From the NCBI GenBank assembly GCA_028709585.1, contig JAQVWS010000004.1:1-46086 (forward strand): a stretch of 46,086 nt of DNA, written 5' to 3'. Origin of the DNA: Syntrophomonas sp. Lineage in GTDB: Bacteria; Bacillota; Syntrophomonadia; Syntrophomonadales; Syntrophomonadaceae. Positions 1-25,742 of this stretch are shown one piece after another (the stretch's first letter is position 1; each line of letters opens with the position of its first letter). A program made the translations under genes and the position numbers. The notes beneath the pieces are model-generated. The model was given only the letters and a program-made list of their open reading frames with translations, made no database searches and was not told the origin of the DNA.

Positions 1-1
1 G

Positions 2-976
2 GCAGACTTTCGGCGTGATCAAATGGTACTGGTATCGTACCTTTGTCTGGGGGCAAATCTAAAAGATAGCAATTCTACCCTGCTCCAAAAACTGGTAGAG
101 GAAGATAGAACCGTTTCTCCTCTCCAAGCAGAATCATCAGGATTATACCAGCCCCAGCCGGGTACAAACCAGGAATCAATTATTGTCCCTGCCATCAGTG
201 AAAGCAATAATAGATTTCAGGTTAGTAATAAGGATGAATTAACCCTGGCCTTGAGCGCAGCCATGATGAAGCTAAAAATGGAATTCATAGTGGATTTGCA
301 TGAATACTCCGGTGATATCCTGCCAGATTTTGAATCGGCTGTAAATGGGGCAATCGATCTTATTAATCAAAATACAGGCATCAAAGACCTGTTAAGCCAA
401 TGGCAGTATTCCGGCACCTCACAAAGTCTGAACATTAAAATGCAATACCGCTATAGCAACGCAAGTCTTGCTCAAGAACTAGTTCAGAATGAAAACGTAC
501 GGGACAAAGTAAAAGAAATAGTTGCTGATATTATTAAACCTGGTATGACCGATTATGATAAGGAGAAAGGTCTGCATGATTATATTGTCAACAATAGCCA
601 ATACGACTATAAGAACCTTTTAAATAACACTATTCCCAAGCATTCTTATTCTCCCTATGGCATCTTGGTTCTGGGCCGCGGGGTATGTCAGGGCTATGCC
701 GAATCTTTTGCCTTATTATGCCAGGAAGCCGGCCTGGAATGTCAGGTCGTCACCGGCGAGGCGTATAGCTTCGGACAGTGGAGCAGCCACGCCTGGAATA
801 TAGTTAAAATCGACGGGATTAATTATCACGTAGATGTTACTTTTGATGATCCCATAACCGATAACGAAACCTCTGTATTAAACCACAATTATTTTAATTT
901 AACTGATGATCAGTTAGCCGAAGATCACAAATGGGAAAGGTCAGCCTATCCGGTGTGCTCAGGAGCTGATATTTAG
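2..976 (+). CDS. Transglutaminase-like domain protein, 5' end truncated by window edge
   Basis: ORF 23..976; frame is open back to position 2. Motif GVCQGYAESFALLCQEAGL...SSHAWNIVKIDG.NYHVDVTFDDP is the transglutaminase-like Cys/His/Asp core. Confidence 0.8.
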   Translation, partial: ADFRRDQMVLVSYLCLGANLKDSNSTLLQKLVEEDRTVSPLQAESSGLYQPQPGTNQESIIVPAISESNNRFQVSNKDELTLALSAAMMKLKMEFIVDLHEYSGDILPDFESAVNGAIDLINQNTGIKDLLSQWQYSGTSQSLNIKMQYRYSNASLAQELVQNENVRDKVKEIVADIIKPGMTDYDKEKGLHDYIVNNSQYDYKNLLNNTIPKHSYSPYGILVLGRGVCQGYAESFALLCQEAGLECQVVTGEAYSFGQWSSHAWNIVKIDGINYHVDVTFDDPITDNETSVLNHNYFNLTDDQLAEDHKWERSAYPVCSGADI

Positions 977-991
977 CTTACTAACTAAGAG

Positions 992-1031
992 AGGGCTGTA
1001 CTGATACCTATATAGTATCGATACAGCCCTT
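992..1031. terminator. Inverted repeat between convergent genes, likely bidirectional terminator
   Basis: agggctgtactgatac...gtatcgatacagccct stem between the stop codons of the transglutaminase gene (+) and floxA (-). Confidence 0.65.
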
Positions 1032-1063
1032 CACATTCTATGTGTATAGCTAGTGTGTGCCCT

Positions 1064-1918
1064 CTACCACTCTGGCGGCAGATCCCGCAACTGTTTCAGA
1101 TAATAGACCGGTCCATCCAGACAGATGAATTCGCTGCCGATATTACAGCGCCCGCATTTGCCTATTCCGCATTTCATACGCATTTCCAGGGTGGTAATTA
1201 CCTGATCATCATTGTAGCCCATCTTTTCCAGGGACTGAAGGACGAACTTAATCATAATCGGCGGGCCGCAGACCACAGCTATGGCGCCTGCAGGAGCGGG
1301 ATTTATCTCTTCCAGATAAGACGGTACAAATCCCACATGCCCATCCCATTCTGCTTCAGCATTATCAATGGTAACAAACACCTCTGTATTGGGTTCTTGG
1401 GGCCACAGCTCGAACAGTTCTTCTTTGAAACAAAGATCAGCCTTACTGCGGCTACCGTAAATTATCGTAATCTTGCCATAGTCCTGCCGGTTTTTGAAGC
1501 AATATTTAATAAAGGAACGCAAAGGGGCCAGCCCAATGCCTCCGGCGATAAAAACCATGTCTTTGCCTTTGCAGTCATTAACCGGAAATCCATTGCCATA
1601 TGGGCCTCTGACTCCAATTTTTTGTCCTATTTCAATCTGATGGAGTTCATCGGTTAAGAGCCCCACGCGTTTAATGGCAAATTCCAGGTATTCCTGGTTC
1701 TCTTGCCAGGTACAGGATATCATGGCTTCTCCAATCGGCAGGTGGGATACCATTCCACACTGGCCGGGAGCCACCTGGAAAGGAACTCCATTGCCATCTG
1801 GATTTTTGACGAAAAAACTTTTCACATCCGGGGTACGGTCAATAATATCAATTACCTCAACAATATTTGGCACCAGCGGTTTTTCACTGCAGGTACATTT
1901 GTGATCCTTATCAGGCAT
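1064..1918 (-). CDS. floxA: FAD/NAD(P)-binding iron-sulfur oxidoreductase subunit, FloxA-like (AsrB/HydG family)
   Basis: GVRGPYGNGFPV, FIAGGIGLAPLRSFI, CGPPIMIKFV and C-terminal CGIGKCGRCN 2Fe-2S motif; position at the end of an hdr operon. Confidence 0.75.
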   Translation of the reverse strand: MPDKDHKCTCSEKPLVPNIVEVIDIIDRTPDVKSFFVKNPDGNGVPFQVAPGQCGMVSHLPIGEAMISCTWQENQEYLEFAIKRVGLLTDELHQIEIGQKIGVRGPYGNGFPVNDCKGKDMVFIAGGIGLAPLRSFIKYCFKNRQDYGKITIIYGSRSKADLCFKEELFELWPQEPNTEVFVTIDNAEAEWDGHVGFVPSYLEEINPAPAGAIAVVCGPPIMIKFVLQSLEKMGYNDDQVITTLEMRMKCGIGKCGRCNIGSEFICLDGPVYYLKQLRDLPPEW

Positions 1919-2936
1919 TTATCTCTGCCTCCTTTACTGCATCGATAATCCTTACGATGTTAATATCTGTCGGGCAGACGATCATACATCTTCCGCAGCC
2001 GGTACATAAGGGAGTTCCGTATCTTTCCTTAAAGAACTGCAGTTTATGCAGAAATCTTTGGCGGAAACGTTCTTTGCTGGCTCCGCGAGGATTGCCGCCA
2101 CCGGCCTCCCGTGAATATTCTTCAAACATGCAGGAGTCCCAGGTGCGGAAACGATAGCCTTGTTCTCCCCACATTTTGACCTGAATATCAAAACAGTAAC
2201 AGGAAGGGCAAACATAGGTACACATGCCGCAGTTGACACAGGGCTCAGCCAATTTGTCCCATAAGGGGTGGTCAAACATATCTTTTAGTTTTTCAGCTAC
2301 CCCGCTGTAATCAACATTCTGGATGAAGGGTTTTATAGCCGGCAATTTTACTTCTTTCTCTTCCAGTATATCTGCCAGCAATGCTGTTACAGCTTCGCCC
2401 TTGTCACTTTTTACTTCCCAGCCATAACCATCTCCCACATCGTGAAGAATTACGTCGGCACCTGCCGGTTCCACACAATTAACCTCCATAGCGTTGCAAA
2501 AGCAGTTGGGTCCTGGTTCATAACAGGCATTAGCTATAATGGTATTGGCACTTCGGCGTGCTTTATAAAGGCTGTCTTCATAGCCTTTAGTCAAAAAGGC
2601 CAGATCCATAGCCATAATGCCTTTGACATCACAGCCCCGGGCCCCAAAAATAATATTGGCGCTGGTATCTTCATAAGTCTTGTCAATATTTACTTCCACA
2701 CCCTGGCTTGCAATGCCGTAAATTCTCTCAGTCTGAGGAAATACAGCATTCTTGGGGGACTGATAAACGTTCAGGGCCTCCAGCATTAGTTCATCCTGGC
2801 CTTCTTCAAAGCTCTTCCAGGTAAAATATCCACTTTGCTTGCCCTTTTGCATAGGCACAAAAACTTCCGCAGAATCACTTAGTTTATTTAAAGCTGTTGA
2901 CAGTTTGTCTTTGCTTAAAACCTTCACATTTCTCAC
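1911..2936 (-). CDS. floxB: 4Fe-4S dicluster protein, FloxB-like (AsrA family)
   Basis: CVNCGMCTYVCPSCYCFD and CTGCGRCMIVCPTDINI motifs; overlaps floxA start. Confidence 0.75.
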   Translation of the reverse strand: MRNVKVLSKDKLSTALNKLSDSAEVFVPMQKGKQSGYFTWKSFEEGQDELMLEALNVYQSPKNAVFPQTERIYGIASQGVEVNIDKTYEDTSANIIFGARGCDVKGIMAMDLAFLTKGYEDSLYKARRSANTIIANACYEPGPNCFCNAMEVNCVEPAGADVILHDVGDGYGWEVKSDKGEAVTALLADILEEKEVKLPAIKPFIQNVDYSGVAEKLKDMFDHPLWDKLAEPCVNCGMCTYVCPSCYCFDIQVKMWGEQGYRFRTWDSCMFEEYSREAGGGNPRGASKERFRQRFLHKLQFFKERYGTPLCTGCGRCMIVCPTDINIVRIIDAVKEAEINA

Positions 2937-2939
2937 CCC

Positions 2940-3845
2940 CTATAAAAAGTCGTCCGGGTCGTTTTCACGGTACACGCTTAGTGGGGGTTTGGAACCTTCC
3001 ACATATTGCATGCCTGCTTCAGGCCCGCCATATAATAAGCCGACATCTTGAATTAGTTTCTTGTTTAAGAGCATTAAAGGAATATTCACCGGACAAACAC
3101 GCTCACACTCTCCGCATTCTATGCAGCGTCCGGCCATATGGGCGTGTTTAACCAGATGATACATCATGTTGTCACTGGTACTGTTTTCGCGTCCTACCCA
3201 TTGTGGTTTCATCTCATCAAAAATACATGTCCGGCAGTCACAGGCAACACATACCTGGCGGCATGCATAACAACGAATACAGGAGGAAATAGTATCTTCC
3301 CAGAATTTATAACGCTCATCAGCGGACATCTGTTCCAGCTCTTTGACTTTGGCAAAGCGATCGCCCTGTTGTCTAGGAGTTTGCTCGGTTCCGACCAATT
3401 CATCATATATCACCGGATTGGGTTGAATACAGTCCAGACACTTCCAGGCCAGTCCTTCCTCTTCCTTGCGGCTAAATCCGCCATAATTCCTGGCAGCAGC
3501 CAACGGGTCTTTCAATCCCGGACAGGGAATACCTACTATATAGAGCCGGTCTCTTTTAATCTGCAAATCCTCCAGAAGCCTTACAATCCCGCGGGAATCG
3601 CAGCCTTTAACCGCAATGCCTATTCTTTCTTGGCTGTCTCTGAATTTCAACAGAGAATTAGAGACGTTATAGATGCTGTATTCATTAAATACAATATTCT
3701 TAACATCTTCCGCGCTCCTAGCCACATAGGAATTGGTGTGAAACTCGTGTTCGCCCTGCTGGGCCCAGGCTAAAAATATGTCAATCTTGTCTTCTGCAAA
3801 AAGCCTGGCTGCTATTTCTTGTATTTTCTTGGTTATTTCTTTCAT
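2940..3845 (-). CDS. floxC: 4Fe-4S protein, FloxC-like (FrhB/HdrC-like ferredoxin domain)
   Basis: CIRCYACRQVCVACDCRTC and CIECGECERVCPVNIP motifs; operon position between floxB and mvhD/floxD. Confidence 0.7.
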   Translation of the reverse strand: MKEITKKIQEIAARLFAEDKIDIFLAWAQQGEHEFHTNSYVARSAEDVKNIVFNEYSIYNVSNSLLKFRDSQERIGIAVKGCDSRGIVRLLEDLQIKRDRLYIVGIPCPGLKDPLAAARNYGGFSRKEEEGLAWKCLDCIQPNPVIYDELVGTEQTPRQQGDRFAKVKELEQMSADERYKFWEDTISSCIRCYACRQVCVACDCRTCIFDEMKPQWVGRENSTSDNMMYHLVKHAHMAGRCIECGECERVCPVNIPLMLLNKKLIQDVGLLYGGPEAGMQYVEGSKPPLSVYRENDPDDFL

Positions 3846-4276
3846 CGCGCATCCCTCAGCTTTCTGTTGGGTCCGAGCTTTTTGATGTCCGACACTACTT
3901 TACCCATTGTTTCTTGAAACTTTATACCTTCAGCACCCGATATCCAGGAAACCTGATATCTCTCTGGCTCAATACCGATAAATTCCATCAAGCCTTTCAT
4001 AACTGTATGCCGACGGCGTTGATAGTAATTGCCACTACCATAGTGGCAGTCACCAGGGTGTCACCCGGAGAGAAGCACACCATCTACCCCGCGGTTGAAA
4101 GCTCTTAAAACCAACATGGGATCCATTCGCCCTGAACAGGGAGTTCGAATAATGCGTATATCTGCTGCATATTCCAAATGGTTTAAGCCCGCCAAGTCTG
4201 CTGCTGCATAGGAACACCAATTGCAAGCAAAAACAATGATTTTAGGTTCCCAGCCAGCTTGTATATCTATAGACAT
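3842..4276 (-). CDS. mvhD: MvhD/FloxD-type 2Fe-2S electron-transfer subunit, predicted selenoprotein (TGA at 4063-4061 read as Sec)
   Basis: ORF 4061..4276 ends ...GVDGVLLSG-TGA; frame continues HPGDCHYGSGNYYQRRRHTVMKGLMEFIGIEPERYQVSWISGAEGIKFQETMGKVVSDIKKLGPNRKLRDAR to TGA at 3844-3842, overlapping the floxC ATG (ATGA). The family motif is GCHPGDCHY. SECIS-like hairpin directly downstream of the TGA. Confidence 0.9.
4033..4051 (-). promoter_or_regulatory. Predicted bacterial SECIS element of mvhD
   Basis: mRNA after UGA: CACCCUGGUGAC-UGCCACUA-UGG-UAGUGGCA; 8-bp perfect stem, 3-nt loop with G at second position, loop starts 21 nt after UGA. Confidence 0.8.
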
Positions 4277-6258
4277 AATGCATCCACCTCCGCAACAAGT
4301 TGGTCATTGCTAAATCCCTTCAGGTTCAGCGCCAAAGTCCGGCAAGCCGGCAAACAAGCACCGCATCCCTGACAAAGACTGCTGTTTACTTCTGCCACCT
4401 GGCGGGTAAAGGGTCCATGTCCGTGCCCGCCGCGTTCTTTAATCTCTACCAGGGAAAGAGCATTATAGGGACAAATCGGCACACACAGACCACAGCCGGA
4501 ACACTTGCTAATATCCACTTCGGATGTCATAGGTTCGGTGGCCAGTTCGGTCTTGGAGAACAAGCCTAACACCTTTACTGCAGCACCGCTTGCCTGGGCG
4601 ACGGTATCAGGAATATCTTTGGGTCCCTGACAGGTTCCGGCCAGGTAAACACCAGCCGCAAAGGTTTCCACCGGCTGTAATTTGGGATGGGCTTCCTGGA
4701 ACCAACCGTCTTTGTCCACTGAGAAACCTATTTTTTTCGCCAGTTCCGCTGCTCCAGTTGATGGTACCATGGCAGTAGCCAGGACTACCATATCTGCTTC
4801 AACTTCGAGTTGTCTTCCCAATAGAGTATCTTCAGATTTTAAAATCAGTTTGTTTCCTTGTGGATATATCTTGCTCACCCGGCCGCGAATATATTTAGCA
4901 CCGGCATTCAGTGCCCGCTGATAAAATTCCTCGTAGTTCTTGCCAGCGGTCCGCACATCCATATAGAAGACATAAGCTTCACTGTCTTCAATCTTGGTTT
5001 TGACCTGATAGGCGTGCTTGGCCGTATACATACAACAGGCCCGGGAGCAGTAGCTTTTGCCTTTGGTGTCATCTCTGGAACCCACACACTTGATAAAAGC
5101 GATGTTCTTAGGCTCGCTGCCATCAGAAGGCCGTATAATCTTTCCGCCCGTAGGACCACCGGCTGAAATCAGCCGTTCAAACTCCAATCCGCTAATAACA
5201 TCGGGGTATTTTCCATAACCGTATTCCCCATAGGCACTTTTCCAGTCAAACTGGTCATAACCGGTGGCCATAACTATAGCCCCGATTTCAATTTCCTTGA
5301 ATACTGCCATGTCCTTAAAGTTGATAGAATCTGTAGGGCAGACTTTTTCACATATGCCACATTTATCCTTGGTCAACTTTAAACAGTTTTCGGCATCTAT
5401 ATAGGGCTTACCTGGAACAGCCTGGGGAAATAGTTTGTGAATAGCCGTTCTCTTGCCCATACCAAAGTCAAATTCATCTGCCAGTTTCTTGGTTGGGCAT
5501 TTTTCCATACAGGTTCCACAACCGGTACAGGCATCCCAATCAACATATTTAGGTTTTTGTTTTACAGTTACTTTGAAGTTGCCAATGTATCCGCTTACCT
5601 GGGTAACTTCTGAATAGGTCATTAATTCAATGTTAGGGTGCTGCGCCGCAGCAACCATCTTGGGGGTGCCAATTCAGGCTGCGCAGTCCATAGTGGGAAA
5701 GGTTTTGTCCAGTTGGGTCATCTTCCCGCCAATGGAGGCCTCTCGTTCCACAATAACAACCTGCTGCCCGCCCTCGGCAATATCCAGGGCAGCCTGCATT
5801 CCGGCAATACCGCCTCCAATTACCATCGCTTTCTTGGTAATGGGAACTGTTGCTGCTTGCAGTGGTCTGTTGCGTAAGGCTTTAGCTACCGCCATGCGCA
5901 CCAGAGACTGAGCTTTACGGGTAGCTTGTTCGCGGTCATGGGTAACCCAGGAGTTCTGCTCACGAATATTGACCATTTCCATCATATAAGCATTGAGTCC
6001 GCCTGTTGCCGTAGCTTTGCGGAAAGTATTTTCATGCATGCGCGGTGAACAGGATGCTACAACAACCTGCTCCAGATTCTGTTCCTGAATAGCGTTTCTG
6101 ATAAGTTCCTGACCAGGATCTGAACACATATATTTATAATTGGTGGCATAAACAACGCCGGGCAGTGTTTTTGCGTATTCAGCTACTCTTTCGGTATCAA
6201 CTGTAGCAGCGATATTAGTTCCACATTCGCATACAAATACGCCAACTCTTTTTTTCAT
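4267..6258 (-). CDS. hdrA: Heterodisulfide reductase subunit A (HdrA), predicted selenoprotein (TGA at 5676-5674 read as Sec), about 663 aa
   Basis: ORFs 5674..6258 and 4267..5658 are in the same frame, separated by one TGA: ...KTFPTMDCAA-U-IGTPKMVAAAQHPNIELMTYSEV...; canonical HdrA has Cys here (DCxAC-I-xTPKMVE). Rossmann motif VIGGGIAGMQAALDIAEGG and ferredoxin motifs CTGCGTCMEKCP, CGICEKVCP, CSGCGLCVPICP, CQGCGACLPAC. Confidence 0.93.
5636..5659 (-). promoter_or_regulatory. Predicted bacterial SECIS element of hdrA
   Basis: mRNA after UGA: AUUGGCACCCCCAAGAU-GGU-UGCUGC-GGC-GCAGCA-CCC; 6-bp perfect stem with GGC loop starting 27 nt after UGA, extendable by GG/CC across a bulge or mismatch. 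Confidence 0.75.
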
Positions 6259-6338
6259 CTACTCCGTCTCCCTCCCCTGTGAAATAACCCTTTATCTTAA
6301 GGACACCCTAGTGTTTCCTGCTGGCAACAATATATTGC

Positions 6339-7556
6339 TTAATCCTGACATTCGCCCTGCCTTTTCAGCTCTTGCTGCACAAAAGCTGCTGCAGCCTTCT
6401 GGGCTAATTCCATGTCTTTAGCCATTAAATGAGCCAGCTTGCCGATGCGCTTATCATCCAGGATAGACGCCAGGACACCTGCCTGAGCAGGATCAGCCAC
6501 TAATTTGGCTGCCATCTTGTCAGGATTCTTCGTCAAAGCAGCTACAAAGCCAGCTACTTTCTTGGGATCTGGCTCGTCTGCAGCGCCACCAGTTTTAACC
6601 GCTTTTTCTTTAGCGCCAGCGCCTTTAGCCTTAGCTTTGGCAGCAGCTTCCTGGGCGGCCTTTTCTGCCGCAGCTTTAGCTTCGGCAGCTCTTATCTTAA
6701 CCGTATCCAGATACTTACCGGCTTCCACAAAGTGTTTGTCTATCCCGACTGTTTTCGGTGCGTCCCCGCAGGCAATGGCAACCAGTTGAGTTATATAATA
6801 TATCGGTATATTAAATTTTGTTTTATAGGCTCTTTCGGCTGCTTTTTGACGCATATCCAGGTTCATCATGCATAACGGACAGGCAGTGACAATGCACTCG
6901 GCCCCTGCGGCCTGGGCGTTTAACAGCACCTCATAAATCATCTTGGTTCCCACATCCGGCCTTGAAGTCGCTAAAGATGCCCCGCAGCATTCCGTTTTAT
7001 AAGGCCAATCAATAGCCTGGGCTCCCAGGGCTTGTATCACTTGATCCATGCTCTGGGGCTCTTCCGTATCATCAAATCCGGTATGCTCTCTGGGTCTTAC
7101 CAGCAGACAGCCATAGTAACAGGCAGCTTTCATGCCGGCTAAAGAGTTTACTACCTTTTCCCGAATCTTTTCCAGCCCAATCTTATTAGCTAATAAGTCA
7201 GGTATGGATACGGTCTCTTGTCTGGCATCATAAGGCATTTCAATAATAGCCTCAATTTTTTCCTTTAGTTTACGGTCATGACGCATGGCATGCTCGGTAG
7301 TCCGAAATCTGTTATAGCAGGCTGCGCAAGGGGCTAGAATATCAAGTCCGCTCTTCTCTGCGATGGCCAGGTTGCGAGCCGGTAACGCAAGGGAAAGGAG
7401 CTTGTTGGTGTTATGCCCCGAGGTAGCCCCGCAGCAATTCCAATCCTCAATTTCTTCCAGCTCTATCCCCAGTATAGCTGCAGTCCGACGGGTTGATAGA
7501 CCATATTCCAACCCGCTGCCATCCAAAGAACAACCCGGATAATAGGCTAGTTTCAT
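6339..7556 (-). CDS. hdrB: Heterodisulfide reductase subunit B (HdrB) with Ala/Lys-rich C-terminal extension
   Basis: CCG-domain motifs (WNCCGATSGH, CAACYNRF, CYYGCLLVRP, TECCGAS, CPLCMMNL); residues after about 285 are not typical of HdrB. Confidence 0.88.
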   Translation of the reverse strand: MKLAYYPGCSLDGSGLEYGLSTRRTAAILGIELEEIEDWNCCGATSGHNTNKLLSLALPARNLAIAEKSGLDILAPCAACYNRFRTTEHAMRHDRKLKEKIEAIIEMPYDARQETVSIPDLLANKIGLEKIREKVVNSLAGMKAACYYGCLLVRPREHTGFDDTEEPQSMDQVIQALGAQAIDWPYKTECCGASLATSRPDVGTKMIYEVLLNAQAAGAECIVTACPLCMMNLDMRQKAAERAYKTKFNIPIYYITQLVAIACGDAPKTVGIDKHFVEAGKYLDTVKIRAAEAKAAAEKAAQEAAAKAKAKGAGAKEKAVKTGGAADEPDPKKVAGFVAALTKNPDKMAAKLVADPAQAGVLASILDDKRIGKLAHLMAKDMELAQKAAAAFVQQELKRQGECQD

Positions 7557-7558
7557 AT

Positions 7559-8128
7559 CTACTCACCCCCCTTTTCCTGTGAACGCTCAAATATTTTTCT
7601 AACCGCATCACGGCCTTTTATTCTCTCCGGCAGTATCCCCAATTTACCTTTCAGGTACATGGGCAATCCCAATTCTGAATCTTTCGTAAACTGCTTGGTG
7701 GCAGTATTATACTGTAATGTCAATCCGGCCTCATAAGTTCTGCCAAACCACTTTACCCCATTTAAGAAAGCCTTATTAAAAGCGGCTACCTTTTTATCAG
7801 TAATCCGGTTCTGCGCAAGAGCCTCCCTGCGAACTGCATCCATCAGGGCAGCAATGTCTACTCCGCGTGGACAGCGGGAAGAACAGGTTTCACAACTGGC
7901 GCATATCCAAACGCTCTCCGCATTCAAAGCCTCATCAACAAATCCCAGTTGTAATAGTCTAATAACCTGACGCGGAGGGTAATCCATGGCAAAAGCTGCC
8001 GGACAACCCGCGGTACACTTTCCGCATTGATAACATAGATTAATGCTTGTACCTGCTTCCTTTTCTAATCTGGATATTAAAGCCTTCTGTCTATCACCGG
8101 TGGGAGATAGTTTTACGGCATTCGCCAA
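7559..8128 (-). CDS. hdrC: Heterodisulfide reductase subunit C (HdrC)
   Basis: CYQCGKCTAGCPAAFAMDYPPRQVIRLLQLG and CASCETCSSRCPRGVDIAALMDA motifs; adjacent to hdrB. Confidence 0.88.
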   Translation of the reverse strand: MANAVKLSPTGDRQKALISRLEKEAGTSINLCYQCGKCTAGCPAAFAMDYPPRQVIRLLQLGFVDEALNAESVWICASCETCSSRCPRGVDIAALMDAVRREALAQNRITDKKVAAFNKAFLNGVKWFGRTYEAGLTLQYNTATKQFTKDSELGLPMYLKGKLGILPERIKGRDAVRKIFERSQEKGGE

Positions 8129-8655
8129 ATTCCTCGCCCCTTTCCTCGACTTAAGAGTTAATAAAAAATTGCCTTACGACAATATTGAACTCGAATTAGT
8201 TGAAAATTCTTATAATTATATCATATAAAGTCTTTTTTAGACCAGGGAAATTTCTATATAAGATTTCCGCTATTCTTCTTGTAACGTTGCAAGATATATG
8301 CCAGACCGCAACTTCTCCTTATTTATTTTGCGGTTCATCTTGTGTATCTTCGGTTCATTTATAATTATAATCCTATTTTCGCTATATTACAATAATTCCG
8401 TTATTAAATAATTCAGTAATTTATCCGGATTAATACAGTTTTAATAAGAAATAACTCTTATGGGTTATAATAATAATAGGTTGCTATTGTGCTTTAAAAC
8501 GATTAAATAAATATTAAGTGTTGCAAAATGTTACTTTACTGTATGCAACACTGTTCCTTTTTGGGTCAGCAAGATAAAATCGGAACCTTCGGGTGGATTA
8601 TCGAACCCCATATAGTTCCGCCAATATCCAGCTTTGATAGAGTTGATATTTTTTC

Positions 8656-9372
8656 CTAAACATCTGTCATTGTTTCATCTGCTGAACGATCTGCATCATT
8701 TTCTTTAGATTTATCTTGAGACCGGGCAGCCATCTTTTGCCACCATTTACCGTGCCGACGAATTACATAATCCTGGTCAATTTTGCCGGTGAACATACTT
8801 GCCACCAAAGGCCGGTTGTCTTTGATAATAAAGGCCAACAGATGCACAATAATGGATAATAGCAAAATTACCGTAAAAAGATTATGAATCTGGGCCAGCC
8901 AGAATACACTGCTGGTAGATAAATATACCCCCGGCATATTCTTATATACTTTCAGTATACCGGTAATTATTAGTGCCAATATTGAAACCGCAGTTACCGC
9001 AAAGGCCAGCCTTTGTTCGGCTAAATACTTATCATTCTCAGGCTCCGGGGCCAAGCCTGCCATGGAAGCAAATATCTGCACCGACTCCTTTATATCTCCT
9101 CGGCGAGGCAAAATATCGTACCTCTTGCTATATAAAAGATAGGTTATATAATAAGCGCTGATAAAAATCAAAACTATAGCTGCAACATAATGGATATTCA
9201 AGGTTATCAGGAAATTGCTGGACCATCCCAAACCAGGCAGCTGGTCTATAAAATATCTTTTATAAATTGGCATTTGTCCAAAACCGGTAAACAGTAATAT
9301 AAAAATTGAGATTGCAACGGTCCAATGAATAAAGCGCACCAGTATATTGTGACGCTTAATCTTCATGGTCAT
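8656..9372 (-). CDS. Cytochrome b561/FdnI-like membrane subunit
   Basis: HNILVRFIHWTVAISIFILLFTGFG start with conserved His residues, several TM segments; overlaps the FeS gene by 17 bp. Confidence 0.75.
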   Translation of the reverse strand: MTMKIKRHNILVRFIHWTVAISIFILLFTGFGQMPIYKRYFIDQLPGLGWSSNFLITLNIHYVAAIVLIFISAYYITYLLYSKRYDILPRRGDIKESVQIFASMAGLAPEPENDKYLAEQRLAFAVTAVSILALIITGILKVYKNMPGVYLSTSSVFWLAQIHNLFTVILLLSIIVHLLAFIIKDNRPLVASMFTGKIDQDYVIRRHGKWWQKMAARSQDKSKENDADRSADETMTDV

Positions 9373-10354
9373 CGTCTCCCTTCATTATTTGATAGGTGCT
9401 GATTGCAGCGGCCAAAATTCCTGCTGCCGGCGCCATAAGGAATCCACCCAGCATTTTATCCGGCATATTTAAAGGATTTTCCATATTAACAGCCATATTA
9501 ATCCTGCCTGGCTGGCCGTCTATATCCTGAGCCAGGATAGCCTTATTGATTACCTCAAATGGTATTTTGGAGATGTAGAAATTTGATGTCCCACCGTTTT
9601 CAACATCACCATATATATAGCCATTATTTTCCTTAGCCCAGTTTTTAGCATATTGGCGCAGCTCTGCCTTATCGCCAAATTTAATTGCCCCCTGAGGACA
9701 CGATGATACACAGGCCGGCTGACCGCCGTCAGCAATTAGGTCATGGCACATATCACATTTGTACATTACTCCCCCGCCTGCATAATCAGGCGCCACTTGC
9801 AGATAAAGGCCTACCCCGGCTTGGCGCTGCGGTATATGCCAGGGGCAAACATCGCGGCATTTTCCGCCCCCAAAGCAACCGTTGGGATTTATAACCACCG
9901 GCCCTTCGGGCAACTTATCATTTACGCCAAAAGGACACAGTGTCGAACAGGGCGGATTGTCACAATGCATGCACTTGCGCGGAATATGAATCTTTACTTC
10001 TTCTCCGTTATGGACAAATTCCAGATGCTGTACATATGTCCAATTATACGGGGTTAGCCGGTCATTTAGATCTCTTTTATGCGACCAGTCCTCAAACTTT
10101 TTCTGCGGCCAATAGTTTTTTATAGGCTGCTGGGGCTCAGGGTATTTGGGCATATTTTTAACCCGGCACCCGGCCACACATGCAGGGGTATCCAAATGCG
10201 GACATCCGTTGCATTTAGTTAAATCATGAAGCATTGCATAATTTTCTGACGACAAGGTCTGGGCTGCAGCTTTCCCGGCACCGCTTAATATGCTGGCGGC
10301 AGCAGCCCCAGAAACAGCGGTTCTTATTAAAAATGATCTTCTTGTGATTGCCAT
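9356..10354 (-). CDS. Tat-exported 4Fe-4S ferredoxin subunit (FdnH/DmsB-like) with C-terminal membrane anchor
   Basis: Twin-arginine TRRSFLIRTAVSGAAAASIL; CMHCDNPPCSTLCPFG, CRDVCPW, CDMCHDLIADGGQPACVSSCPQGAI motifs; hydrophobic C-terminal segment. Confidence 0.8.
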   Translation of the reverse strand: MAITRRSFLIRTAVSGAAAASILSGAGKAAAQTLSSENYAMLHDLTKCNGCPHLDTPACVAGCRVKNMPKYPEPQQPIKNYWPQKKFEDWSHKRDLNDRLTPYNWTYVQHLEFVHNGEEVKIHIPRKCMHCDNPPCSTLCPFGVNDKLPEGPVVINPNGCFGGGKCRDVCPWHIPQRQAGVGLYLQVAPDYAGGGVMYKCDMCHDLIADGGQPACVSSCPQGAIKFGDKAELRQYAKNWAKENNGYIYGDVENGGTSNFYISKIPFEVINKAILAQDIDGQPGRINMAVNMENPLNMPDKMLGGFLMAPAAGILAAAISTYQIMKGDDDHED

Positions 10355-10507
10355 ACTATACCTCCTAATAAATATACCCCCTATGGGTATTTTATATCTC
10401 TATTTTATACATTCGTATAGATTTTGGCAATAACAAATATTTTTCTTCTGTAACTATCATAGGATAAATAAACATAATAAAATAAATTTTCGGGTAATCC
10501 TAACCGT

Positions 10508-10533
10508 AAAAAAGAGGGGTTGTCCCCTCTTTT
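10508..10533 (-). terminator. Rho-independent terminator of feoB
   Basis: Minus strand AAAAGAGGGGACAACCCCTCTTTTTT. Confidence 0.85.
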
Positions 10534-10556
10534 AAGCAACTTCAAAATGCCGTTGT

Positions 10557-12728
10557 TTATGCCCATCCCAATAATCGTACGGTTTGAGCTACCACAAAAC
10601 AAAGTATTATACCGGTCATGGTTGGTACTATAAAAGCCACCAACGGCCATTTCTTGCTTTGGGTCTCTTTGCAGATAGTTAGTAAAGTTGTTCCGCAGGG
10701 AAAATGATTAAGGAAGAAGAGCATAGTACATAATGCTGTCAACCAGGTCCATTCATGGGAAACAAACAACTCTCGCAATGATTCCAGACTGTTTATTTCG
10801 ATTAGCTGACCGGTAGACATATACGCCATTATTAGAATGGGAATAACAATCTCATTGGCTGGAAATCCTAATATAAAGGCAATCAGTATAAATCCATCCA
10901 ATCCCAGATAACGAGCGAACGGGTCTAAAACATTAGCTCCATATTGTATGATGCTTATCTCATTGTCGCCCATGAAAACATTAGCCATTATCCAGATAAT
11001 TAAACCAGCCGGAGCCGCTACCATAACCGCCCGGCCAAGAACAAATAAGGTACGGTCATATAGGGAGCGCACTATGATCCTCCCTATTTGTGGCTTTCTA
11101 TAGGGAGGCAATTCCAAAGTAAATGAGGAAGGCATTCCCTTTAGAATGGTATGGGATAGAAGTTTTGAAACCGTTAATGTTATAACTATTCCCAGAACTA
11201 TTAAGGCTACAATGGTTAAAACCGCCAGCACAGACTGGTACTGGCCTGCTGATCCAGCGATAAATATCATGGCCAGGGCAATTAAGGCTGGAAAGCGTCC
11301 GTTACAGGGCACAAAATTATTGGTTATCGTGGCAATCAGGCGCTCCCGAGGGGAGTCAATAATTCGGCAGGCAATCACGCCGGCTGCATTACAACCGAGT
11401 CCCATGCACATGGTCAAGGCCTGTTTCCCATGAGCGCAAGCCTTCTTAAAGAAGTTATCCAGATTAAAAGCAACCCGGGGCAGGTATCCCAGATCTTCTA
11501 AAATGGTGAATAGCGGGAAAAATATAGCCATGGGCGGCAACATTACTGCTATAACCCAGGCCAGGGTTCGATAAACACCCAGAACCAGTGCTCCATGCAA
11601 CCAATTCGGGCAATTAACCCACAGGCAAAAATCGGTTAATTTTTCCTCAAACCAGAATAAACCTATGGTCAGCGCTTGGGAAGGATAATTTGCCCCCTCA
11701 ATCGTAATCCACAATATCAAGCCCAATAAGCTTATCATAATAGGTATGCCAAAAAGCCTGGATGTCAGGATATTATCAATTTGGCGGTCCTGTTGATTGT
11801 ACGATTGTTTTGCATATGATATAGTTGCAGCACTAATCTCTTCAGCATTTTTTAAAATCTCTAATACCATGCTATCGCACAATTCATCTTTGCCAATATT
11901 ATTCTGCACCAGATATTGCTCCAACTGGGTTAAGGTATGTAATATATCTTTTTCCGAACAGATATCCTTTGCCAGGTATTTGCCTACCACCTCCAGGAAT
12001 GGGTCTTGATTCTCTAATAACCTTAAAGATATCCATCTGCTTATAAACTTGTCTTTTATGCATAGACTAATAACTGGTTCAATTTTACTTACCAGATCTT
12101 CAATTAAACTATTATAATGCACCTTTAGGGGCTTAGTTGTTATTTTACCGCTGGCTACATCTTGTATGGTATCCTGCAGCTCATTCAGACCCACCCCCGT
12201 CCTGGCACTGGTTCCTATGACTGGGACTCCCAGCAGCGAGGAAAGGCGCTGTAAATCAATATGAATACCTTTCCTTCCGGCCTCATCCAACAGGTTTACA
12301 CATACCACTACTTTATCAGTAATCTCCATAATCTGCAGAACCAGGTTGAGATTTCTTTCCAGAGTTGTTGCATCGGCAACCACAACCGTTGCTTGTGGTC
12401 TGCCAAAACAGATAAAATCTCTGGCAATCTCCTCTTCGGGTGAATTAGCTGCTAATGAATAGGTGCCCGGCAGATCAATTAAATTATAATTATTACCTTT
12501 ATGGTTATACCTCCCCTGGGCATTGGCTACGGTTTTGCCCGGCCAATTTCCGGTATGCTGATTTAATCCGGTCAGACTGTTAAAGATGGTGCTTTTACCG
12601 GTATTGGGATTCCCGGCGAGGGCAATTACCAAACCATCGACACAATTTTGATACATGAGAGACGTCTCCTTAACCGAACCAATTGCTGATTTAGAGTGGA
12701 AATCCATTAATTGTACCGCCTTATTCAT
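10557..12728 (-). CDS. feoB: Ferrous iron transport protein B
   Basis: GNPNTGKSTIFNSLTG, DLPGTYSL G-motifs, multiple TM helices, FVPCNGRFPAL. Confidence 0.95.
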   Translation of the reverse strand: MNKAVQLMDFHSKSAIGSVKETSLMYQNCVDGLVIALAGNPNTGKSTIFNSLTGLNQHTGNWPGKTVANAQGRYNHKGNNYNLIDLPGTYSLAANSPEEEIARDFICFGRPQATVVVADATTLERNLNLVLQIMEITDKVVVCVNLLDEAGRKGIHIDLQRLSSLLGVPVIGTSARTGVGLNELQDTIQDVASGKITTKPLKVHYNSLIEDLVSKIEPVISLCIKDKFISRWISLRLLENQDPFLEVVGKYLAKDICSEKDILHTLTQLEQYLVQNNIGKDELCDSMVLEILKNAEEISAATISYAKQSYNQQDRQIDNILTSRLFGIPIMISLLGLILWITIEGANYPSQALTIGLFWFEEKLTDFCLWVNCPNWLHGALVLGVYRTLAWVIAVMLPPMAIFFPLFTILEDLGYLPRVAFNLDNFFKKACAHGKQALTMCMGLGCNAAGVIACRIIDSPRERLIATITNNFVPCNGRFPALIALAMIFIAGSAGQYQSVLAVLTIVALIVLGIVITLTVSKLLSHTILKGMPSSFTLELPPYRKPQIGRIIVRSLYDRTLFVLGRAVMVAAPAGLIIWIMANVFMGDNEISIIQYGANVLDPFARYLGLDGFILIAFILGFPANEIVIPILIMAYMSTGQLIEINSLESLRELFVSHEWTWLTALCTMLFFLNHFPCGTTLLTICKETQSKKWPLVAFIVPTMTGIILCFVVAQTVRLLGWA

Positions 12729-12969
12729 CTGTTGCTAGATATTCTACCAGTATTTGTGATGCTGACTCTGAACGAAGCGCGATGACCACTCCCCGTAATT
12801 CATAGGCAATCGGATCACCGCAGGGGCTTTTTTGTAATGACTTAATTTTTGTATTATAAACAAGCCCCAAATCCATCATTCTTCTTCTTTCATTACCCTG
12901 AGCGGTTAGTTTTTTGACTATTCCTGAACTGCCGGGTGAAAGCTGGTGTAATGGAATTAGACTACCCAT
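12721..12969 (-). CDS. feoA: Ferrous iron transport protein A
   Basis: FeoA/SH3-like sequence LTAQGNERRRMMDLGLV..., upstream of feoB. Confidence 0.9.
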   Translation of the reverse strand: MGSLIPLHQLSPGSSGIVKKLTAQGNERRRMMDLGLVYNTKIKSLQKSPCGDPIAYELRGVVIALRSESASQILVEYLATDE

Positions 12970-13151
12970 AAATTTTTGCCTCCATAAAATAATGCCTCAT
13001 AGCTTGAATATTAATAAAGAGTTATTTTAATCTTACGACCTATATTATGTCTGGAATAATCCTTTTGTTACTACTATGAATATAATCGCATCACAATTAA
13101 CTGACTGTAAGTAAGTCATAATTTCGATAATAAATAAGGCAATATGTAATT

Positions 13152-23486: not shown

Positions 23487-24182
23487 TCATATGTTGTCTT
23501 TTAAACTTTTATATTCATCCCGAATGAGTTTGAAATCCTCCCAGGTGGGGCGTTTGTAGCCCTCATTACGCAAGAGGGCAGCCGGATGATAGCTGGCTAT
23601 TATCTTGATTCCGTTGCGTATAAACCATTTACCCCGGGTTTTGCTAATTTTGGCCTTGGGGTCAATTACTGTCTGGCAGGCCAGAGAACCCAAACAGACA
23701 ATAATCTTAGGCTTAATAATGCTGATTTGTAATTCCAGCAATTTTCGACATTCTTTCACCTCATCTGGATTGGGTAGCCTGTTTCCAGGCGGACGGCATT
23801 TGACAACATTGGTTATGTAAGATTCCGGGCGATTAAATTCTGATGCAACTAATATTTTGTTAAGCAGTTGACCGGCCCGGCCTACAAATGGCAATCCTTG
23901 CCGATCCTCATCCTGCCCCGGCCCCTCACCAATAAACATAATATCAGCGTGGATATCGCCATCACCGATAACCACCTGCTGGCAAGTACCCCTCAAGCGG
24001 CAACGTTCGCATTTCTTTATCAGCTCATCCAGTTCCTGATAGTCTTTAATATTATTTATACTGTCTTCCGTCTTAATTCCCGGCAAAAAAGGCAAATCCA
24101 CTTCCATATACTTCCCGGCAGGCTGTGATTTGCTGCCCGGCTCTGCCAAATTGCCAAATAGGCGGGGTTGTTCATTAGACAT
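23487..24182 (-). CDS. Type-4/5 uracil-DNA glycosylase
   Basis: [55 protein letters not shown]; clustered cysteines [10 protein letters not shown]. Confidence 0.93.
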
Positions 24183-24362: not shown

Positions 24363-25742
24363 TTAATCAGCCCGGTTCTTTTCTAAAACAGTATAAAGGT
24401 CTTTAAAGCCGTTGCCAATCCTCCAGAAGCTGATCCCGCCCAGGTTATTGTCTCTGGCTACACTCCACTTGGCCTTCAGGCTCTGTTCATTTTCCAGCCA
24501 AATCTCATGTTTTATGCCTTGCTTGTCGGTGTATGTATAATATGGACTCATGCTCTTTTTATCAAAATGCTCACTTATTGCATAGTCATTTCTTATATTA
24601 TTAAGTTTTTCCCAGGTCACCGTGGTGGTTGTCAGGCCCGTTCCCCAGTTATAGCCATAGGTAGCCATCCCCAGCAGCAGTTTTGAGGCTGGGATACGAG
24701 CCTCAACAGTCATATAATCAACCACTTTTTCAACCCACCACAAAGGTGCTATCGGCCCCGGGTCAGTATTTTTGTAGCTGTAATCATAGGACATCACCAC
24801 CATTTTATCCACTATCCCCCCGATAGCCCGGTAATCATAAGCGGTAGGCCATTTATCATCAACTGTCCGGGCAAAGACGGCCACTGATAATATTTTCTCG
24901 TGGCCTAGCCGCTCTCTTAGTTCTTTTAAAAATGTCGTAAATAAATCTTTGTCACTGGCAGCAATAAATTCAAAATCAATATTTACCCCATCATATTTAT
25001 TTTTGTGAACTTCATCATAAATATTATTAATTAATTTTGCCCTTCTCTGAGGGTCGGATAGCAGACTATGTAAGCCGGTCTTATCCATAAAGACAACGCT
25101 GGCATGGGTTTTTTTGCCTTGACTTTTAATATAATTCAGCACCTTATCGTAATTATCCGGGTATTCATAAAAAAGGTTGCCATCCCCATCGGTTTCAAAC
25201 CAACGCAAAGCAATATCCGTGAATAAATCTACATTGTTCTGCAGTTCTGGAAATCCTCCCCAGTAATAATAAGCAAATACGGCCGGTTTATTATTCACAG
25301 TCTTATTTATAAAATTAATGCTGACTTCGTTTAAATCACTGTTCCAGTTCACCACTCCGCCTAAATTTTCAGCCAGAAATCTCAGCGGCAGATAAGTTCG
25401 ATTTTTATACACATAGGGAGCAACATCCAGGTATGTTAGCGTTCCATTAACATTTACCTTACGGTCGCCGATTAAAAACTCAAATTTCTTCTCCCGGCAG
25501 GAAACCGTTACCTTGCCGCTACCGGCCTCCCAGTTAACAATACCCAGCAAGGCTTCATCCTCAATCACAAAACGCAAGGGAACCATAGTCCGCTGGTTTA
25601 CGATTTGACAGGGCGGATCGAAAGTCTTTTTTTGCTCATCAATCTTAATAGATGGCCCCCCGGAAGCTACGTTGGCCTCGGCCGGAATGAACAAAAATGC
25701 CAATAAAAATATAAATGCTATAACCCCAAGTACTTTTTTCAA
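24363..25742 (-). CDS. Secreted glycoside hydrolase family 18 protein with copper-amine-oxidase-N (stalk) domain
   Basis: Signal peptide; two VPLRFV/LPLRFLAE repeats; YDGVNIDFEF catalytic-like GH18 motif. Confidence 0.88.
   Translation of the reverse strand: MKKVLGVIAFIFLLAFLFIPAEANVASGGPSIKIDEQKKTFDPPCQIVNQRTMVPLRFVIEDEALLGIVNWEAGSGKVTVSCREKKFEFLIGDRKVNVNGTLTYLDVAPYVYKNRTYLPLRFLAENLGGVVNWNSDLNEVSINFINKTVNNKPAVFAYYYWGGFPELQNNVDLFTDIALRWFETDGDGNLFYEYPDNYDKVLNYIKSQGKKTHASVVFMDKTGLHSLLSDPQRRAKLINNIYDEVHKNKYDGVNIDFEFIAASDKDLFTTFLKELRERLGHEKILSVAVFARTVDDKWPTAYDYRAIGGIVDKMVVMSYDYSYKNTDPGPIAPLWWVEKVVDYMTVEARIPASKLLLGMATYGYNWGTGLTTTTVTWEKLNNIRNDYAISEHFDKKSMSPYYTYTDKQGIKHEIWLENEQSLKAKWSVARDNNLGGISFWRIGNGFKDLYTVLEKNRAD

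Follow-up and report, generated by a model that had tools for sequence, protein, structure and literature searches.

An in-frame UGA, very probably read as selenocysteine, in mvhD/flxD of a Syntrophomonas hdrCBA-flxDCBA operon

Standard gene calling at the mvhD/flxD locus of a Syntrophomonas sp. gave a 71-aa stub closed by TGA, directly downstream of hdrA, within the 46,086-nucleotide stretch of DNA analysed here (the window). This raised the question of whether that TGA ends a short protein or encodes a residue of a longer one. Our comparison of the locus with its relatives indicated that mvhD/flxD is almost certainly a selenoprotein gene of the hdrCBA-flxDCBA operon, in which the UGA would be decoded as selenocysteine (Sec) with the help of a downstream stem-loop.

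Gene model of mvhD/flxD and its operon

The features of the operon, with the evidence for each, were as follows.

7559..8128, minus strand: hdrC (TIGR03290, E 2e-23)
6339..7556, minus strand: hdrB, with two CCG domains and a C-terminal extension
4267..6258, minus strand: hdrA, 663 codons with an internal UGA (HdrA2 NF040770, E 2e-246 when read through)
5674..5676, minus strand: predicted UGA Sec codon of hdrA (MDCAAU motif; TGA or Cys codons in motif-bearing relatives)
3842..4276, minus strand: mvhD/flxD (frhD family), 144 codons with predicted Sec at codon 72, replacing the 71-aa stub
4061..4063, minus strand: predicted UGA Sec codon of mvhD, at the Cys72 position of GCHPGDCHY
2940..3845, minus strand: flxC-like Fe-S protein, its start codon overlapping the mvhD stop
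1911..2936, minus strand: flxB-like (AsrA/HydB family) Fe-S protein, from profile matches and conserved neighbourhood
1064..1918, minus strand: flxA-like FAD/NAD(P)-binding electron-transfer subunit, from profile matches and conserved neighbourhood

The 5′ half of mvhD, the open reading frame 4276..4061, ended in ...GVLLSG-TGA, and the same frame continued past this codon as HPGDCHYGSGNYYQRRRHTVMKGLMEFIGIEPERYQ...KLRDAR to a TGA stop at 3844..3842, which overlaps the ATG (3845) of the flxC-like gene; the read-through peptide across the site is GVLLSG-U-HPGDCHYGSGNYY. Extension of the coding sequence to 3842 yielded a full-length FlpD/MvhD protein that matched Pfam FlpD PF02662 over the entire profile (positions 1-123 of 123; E 9e-50; 168 bits against a gathering cut-off of 22.3 bits), and its closest relative showed 93% identity, matched over residues 1-146. 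All five conserved Cys/Sec positions of the family (CxxC, CSG, and [C/U]HPGDC) were present as C18, C21, C47, U72, and C77, with U72 taking the place of one of the five conserved cysteines. The product could also be aligned over residues 8-140 with chain D of structure 5ODC (E 3e-46), where the Sec codon fell on the Cys within the GCHLGDCHY stretch. An earlier note on this DNA, made from the sequence, had described a frame that stops at GVLLSG-TGA, continues beyond it, and overlaps the next gene, with the TGA at the Cys of GCHPGDCHY; our coordinates and translation agreed with the former, and translation together with the family alignment bore out the latter.

The genes are tightly packed, with several overlaps, in the order hdrC-hdrB-hdrA(Sec)-flxD(Sec)-flxC-flxB-flxA, and the FlxABCD-HdrABC set is complete: hdrABC, the NAD(P)H flavoprotein gene flxA, flxB, flxC, and the MvhD-like flxD. 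This arrangement was kept in 34-35 of the 35 Sec loci with enough flanking sequence, and flxC lay beside mvhD in 35/35 Sec loci over 7 kb. No hydrogenase large or small subunit (mvhA/mvhG), as the Mvh-HdrABC type would require, was found among the seven operon proteins at 1064-8128. In the HdrB-like protein, about 120 Ala/Lys-rich residues follow the CCG domains as a C-terminal extension (6339-6700, minus strand).

The Sec-site codon and the downstream hairpin across relatives

Homologous regions were collected from 60 related whole genomes and a named genome collection and translated in six frames with TGA left open. At exactly the mvhD Sec site, the codon was TGA in 68, TGC in 26, and TGT in 24 of the 118 homologous stretches, with no other codon observed, and TGA appeared in no other column of the MvhD family alignment. 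These 118 stretches contain some same-locus duplicates, and the distinct set comprised 51 TGA and 45 Cys genes. The nearest named relatives belonged to Syntrophomonas and Syntrophomonadaceae, with identities from 93% down to about 65%. TGA forms were found in S. zehnderi, S. wolfei subsp. methylbutyratica, Thermosyntropha lipolytica, Peptococcaceae, and an Ammonifex, among others, and Cys forms in Chloroflexota, Latescibacterota, Thermodesulfobacteriota, archaea, and others. In a tree of 93 MvhD proteins, about five Sec/Cys changes were needed, an approximate figure drawn from few alignment columns.

Two predicted structures lie downstream of the mvhD TGA.

4030..4048, minus strand: apical SECIS hairpin of mvhD, 8 bp with loop UGG, from folding and comparison of relatives
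4023..4055, minus strand: extended predicted stem around this hairpin, its outer 6 bp varying in relatives

The hairpin reads TGCCACTA-TGG-TAGTGGCA at 4048..4030 (+15..+33), and its loop begins 21 nt after the TGA; the perfect 8-bp hairpin with a loop at +21 nt claimed in the earlier note was thus correct in both sequence and position. Folded on its own, it was mildly unusual (z = -2.0; 8/200 shuffles were equally good), and this single-sequence score is not our main evidence. The comparison of relatives was far sharper: all eight pairs (8/8) were complete in 50/51 distinct TGA genes and in 0/45 Cys genes, the latter retaining 4 to 7 of the 8 pairs despite a nearly identical encoded peptide, and random synonymous recoding of the TGA forms produced 8/8 pairs in 2% of cases. 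Consistent with this, synonymous codon diversity in TGA genes was 0.047 at hairpin codons +5..+11, the lowest 7-codon window of the analysed region, compared with 0.558 elsewhere, and the lowest value for any single codon outside the hairpin was 0.117. In Cys genes, there was no dip (0.582 at the hairpin codons vs 0.629 elsewhere). Third positions are thus fixed only in genes whose UGA must be decoded, and the 8-bp hairpin is, judged by this comparison, a bacterial SECIS. The outer stem was dropped from the conserved SECIS core because its pairing varies among relatives, and an Rfam scan of positions 1-13000 of the window returned nothing at the gathering threshold.

The only TGA-form mvhD with a broken hairpin (1/51) was found at locus L042 (1468..1908, TGA at 1678; the same locus as L081), where 6/8 pairs were formed and GTG stood in place of GSG. 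Its hdrA carries Cys, and its MvhD clusters in the tree with two Cys revertants (L039 and L080). This locus could represent an intermediate between Sec and Cys, the use of another SECIS, or an assembly error.

The earlier note had called mvhD a second tandem selenoprotein gene, and this description holds, since hdrA, immediately upstream, is also a Sec gene with a constrained hairpin of its own. Motif-bearing relatives of hdrA comprised 49 distinct Sec and 18 Cys forms; synonymous variation in the codons after the hdrA UGA was lost in the Sec forms only, and the constrained hairpin, GGUUGCUGCGGCGCAGCA (minus strand), lies within about 45 nt after the UGA. A few HdrA-profile matches with non-Cys codons at this site were set aside, as they lacked the HdrA motif (e.g., PDGKDPQKLL). 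Among loci where both genes were readable, 47 were Sec/Sec, 23 were Cys/Cys, and three were genuine mixtures: L039 combined a Cys MvhD with a Sec HdrA, and L042 and L100 (the Ammonifex locus) combined a Sec MvhD with a Cys HdrA. A fourth listed mixture, L063, involved a paralogue and hence was not counted. The mixed loci, together with the changes in the tree, show that each selenoprotein can switch between Sec and Cys independently, though rarely.

Selenocysteine machinery and other readings of the UGA

The source genome (genus Syntrophomonas) possesses the Sec machinery, whose absence would, according to the earlier note, have refuted the selenoprotein reading. Matches to selA (571 bits), selB (368 bits), tRNA-Sec with anticodon UCA (70 bits), and selD all exceeded their curated cut-offs, and selA, selB, and tRNA-Sec are clustered in a stretch of about 9 kb on a single contig. 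The selD gene (L128; contig C142:15529-16452, minus strand) has one internal TGA, and selenophosphate synthetase is likely to be a selenoprotein itself. Across 61 related genomes, selB exceeded the cut-off in nearly all of those with TGA-form FlpD. In one 92% complete draft with a TGA-form mvhD (G015), neither selB nor tRNA-Sec was found above the cut-off, a gap most likely due to assembly because its congener G033 has both; tRNA-Sec was also missing in a few other drafts (G006 and G043).

Three other readings of the UGA were weighed against decoding as Sec. Programmed leaky termination, in which a functional 71-aa N-terminal fragment would be made alongside the selenoprotein under selenium scarcity, seems very improbable. 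Termination at Sec UGA codons generally competes with SelB, and the genome offers no Cys paralogue of MvhD as a fallback (a FlpD profile search returned one match only), both of which are compatible with such a fragment. However, the fragment would stop short of Cys positions 72 and 77, and with three of the five conserved positions it could not hold the complete Cys set of the family, and we found no sequence sign of a separate role for it.

The frame would be open under any code that reads TGA as a residue, but decoding as another amino acid (e.g., Trp or Cys) through an altered code or a suppressor tRNA is extremely improbable: the only other codons found at the site encode Cys, the genome encodes a complete Sec system with tRNA-Sec(UCA), the SECIS hairpin accompanies the codon, and TGA terminates genes in the usual way at other places in the window, such as 23489 and the 3′ end of mvhD. 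In-frame TGA junctions were listed across the window where at least 60 aa lay on both sides, and, besides hdrA and mvhD, there were three, one on the minus and two on the plus strand. The former (23487-23489) was rejected as a Sec codon, being an ordinary stop between uracil-DNA glycosylase-like and TsaE-like genes (assigned by eye); the latter were at 5164, antisense to hdrA, and at 24684.

Finally, a true stop arising from mutation or sequencing error, which would make mvhD a pseudogene or a truncated 71-aa protein, accords with the stub from standard gene calling and with an ATG at 4000 where the downstream product could in principle restart, but it is scarcely credible given that the same TGA recurs in 68/118 homologous stretches across several families, that mvhD is intact and conserved downstream of it, and that the hairpin is under synonymous constraint only where TGA is present.

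Proposed function and comparison with known systems

Under the favoured reading as a selenoprotein gene, the stem-loop just 3′ of the mvhD UGA would recruit SelB with Sec-tRNA(UCA), and Sec would, on comparative grounds, be inserted in place of a Cys that is invariant in the family. MvhD/ElpC binds a [2Fe-2S] cluster and hands electrons to HdrA (PMC12350162). By family membership, the 144-residue FlxD may likewise carry a [2Fe-2S] centre joining the electron-input module to HdrA, and the input module here would be the NADH-oxidising FlxABC rather than a [NiFe] hydrogenase. Most likely, flavin-based bifurcation or confurcation lets the complex couple NADH and ferredoxin to a disulfide or another acceptor, and Sec probably tunes or protects an Fe-S/thiol site. 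The locus probably encodes an NADH-linked, electron-bifurcating or -confurcating Hdr complex with two selenoprotein subunits. It is conceivable, although we consider it rather unlikely, that the Sec residues of HdrA and FlxD, located at or next to the Fe-S centres that flank the flavin, jointly shift the potentials of the relay and so permit confurcation near thermodynamic equilibrium in syntrophs, in which case the near-perfect Sec/Sec and Cys/Cys pairing would reflect functional coupling and not shared descent.

The novelty implied in the earlier note for a Sec-containing MvhD did not survive comparison with the literature. Zhang et al. 2006 had already reported FrhD and HdrA selenoproteins in Clostridia, including Syntrophomonas wolfei, Carboxydothermus hydrogenoformans, Desulfotomaculum reducens, and Moorella thermoacetica (PMC1794560), and reviews treat FrhD/MvhD as one of the standard selenoprotein families and hdrA as its partner in the operon (PMC13188914, PMC2933860, PMC11227280). 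The Sec mvhD described here is therefore an already known selenoprotein, correctly found again in a further species of Syntrophomonas. What our analysis adds is the corrected gene model, the demonstration of synonymous constraint, and a natural Sec/Cys series. With hdrA and flxD split at their Sec codons, as standard gene calling would do, the complex would seem to be broken at its core in draft genomes of butyrate-oxidising syntrophs, a major group. The natural series sets about 50 Sec forms of one small protein, in which the hairpin is frozen, against about 45 Cys forms, in which it is free, and should be useful for SECIS models and for understanding the role of Sec at an Fe-S relay.

The locus shares with the set of Zhang et al. 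2006 the genus, the two selenoprotein families, the bacterial Sec system, and membership of the Clostridia; it differs in species, and the available text of that paper treats families per organism and does not describe the flxABC operon (PMC1794560). In Syntrophomonas BUT1, a floxABCD-hdrABC cluster has been described and proposed to connect NADH, ferredoxin, and a disulfide acceptor (PMC6687939), where FlxABCD-HdrABC is cited as the NADH dehydrogenase/heterodisulfide reductase of Ramos et al. 2015. The gene set of our operon is the same, with hdrCBA, an MvhD-like FlxD and, after it, Fe-S and NAD(P)/FAD subunits; however, the available sections of that account make no mention of Sec in HdrA or FlxD (PMC6687939). 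As in VhuD/HdrA of Methanococcales and Asgard archaea, hdrA adjoins frhD/vhuD and both carry Sec, but the archaeal SECIS is located in an untranslated region, and is common to both genes in Asgard, whereas here each UGA has its own putative in-frame bacterial SECIS (PMC2933860, PMC11227280). The partner of archaeal VhuD is a [NiFe] hydrogenase, in contrast to the predicted NADH module of our operon, and MvhD of the Mvh-HdrABC structure 5ODC has Cys instead of Sec and likewise a hydrogenase partner.
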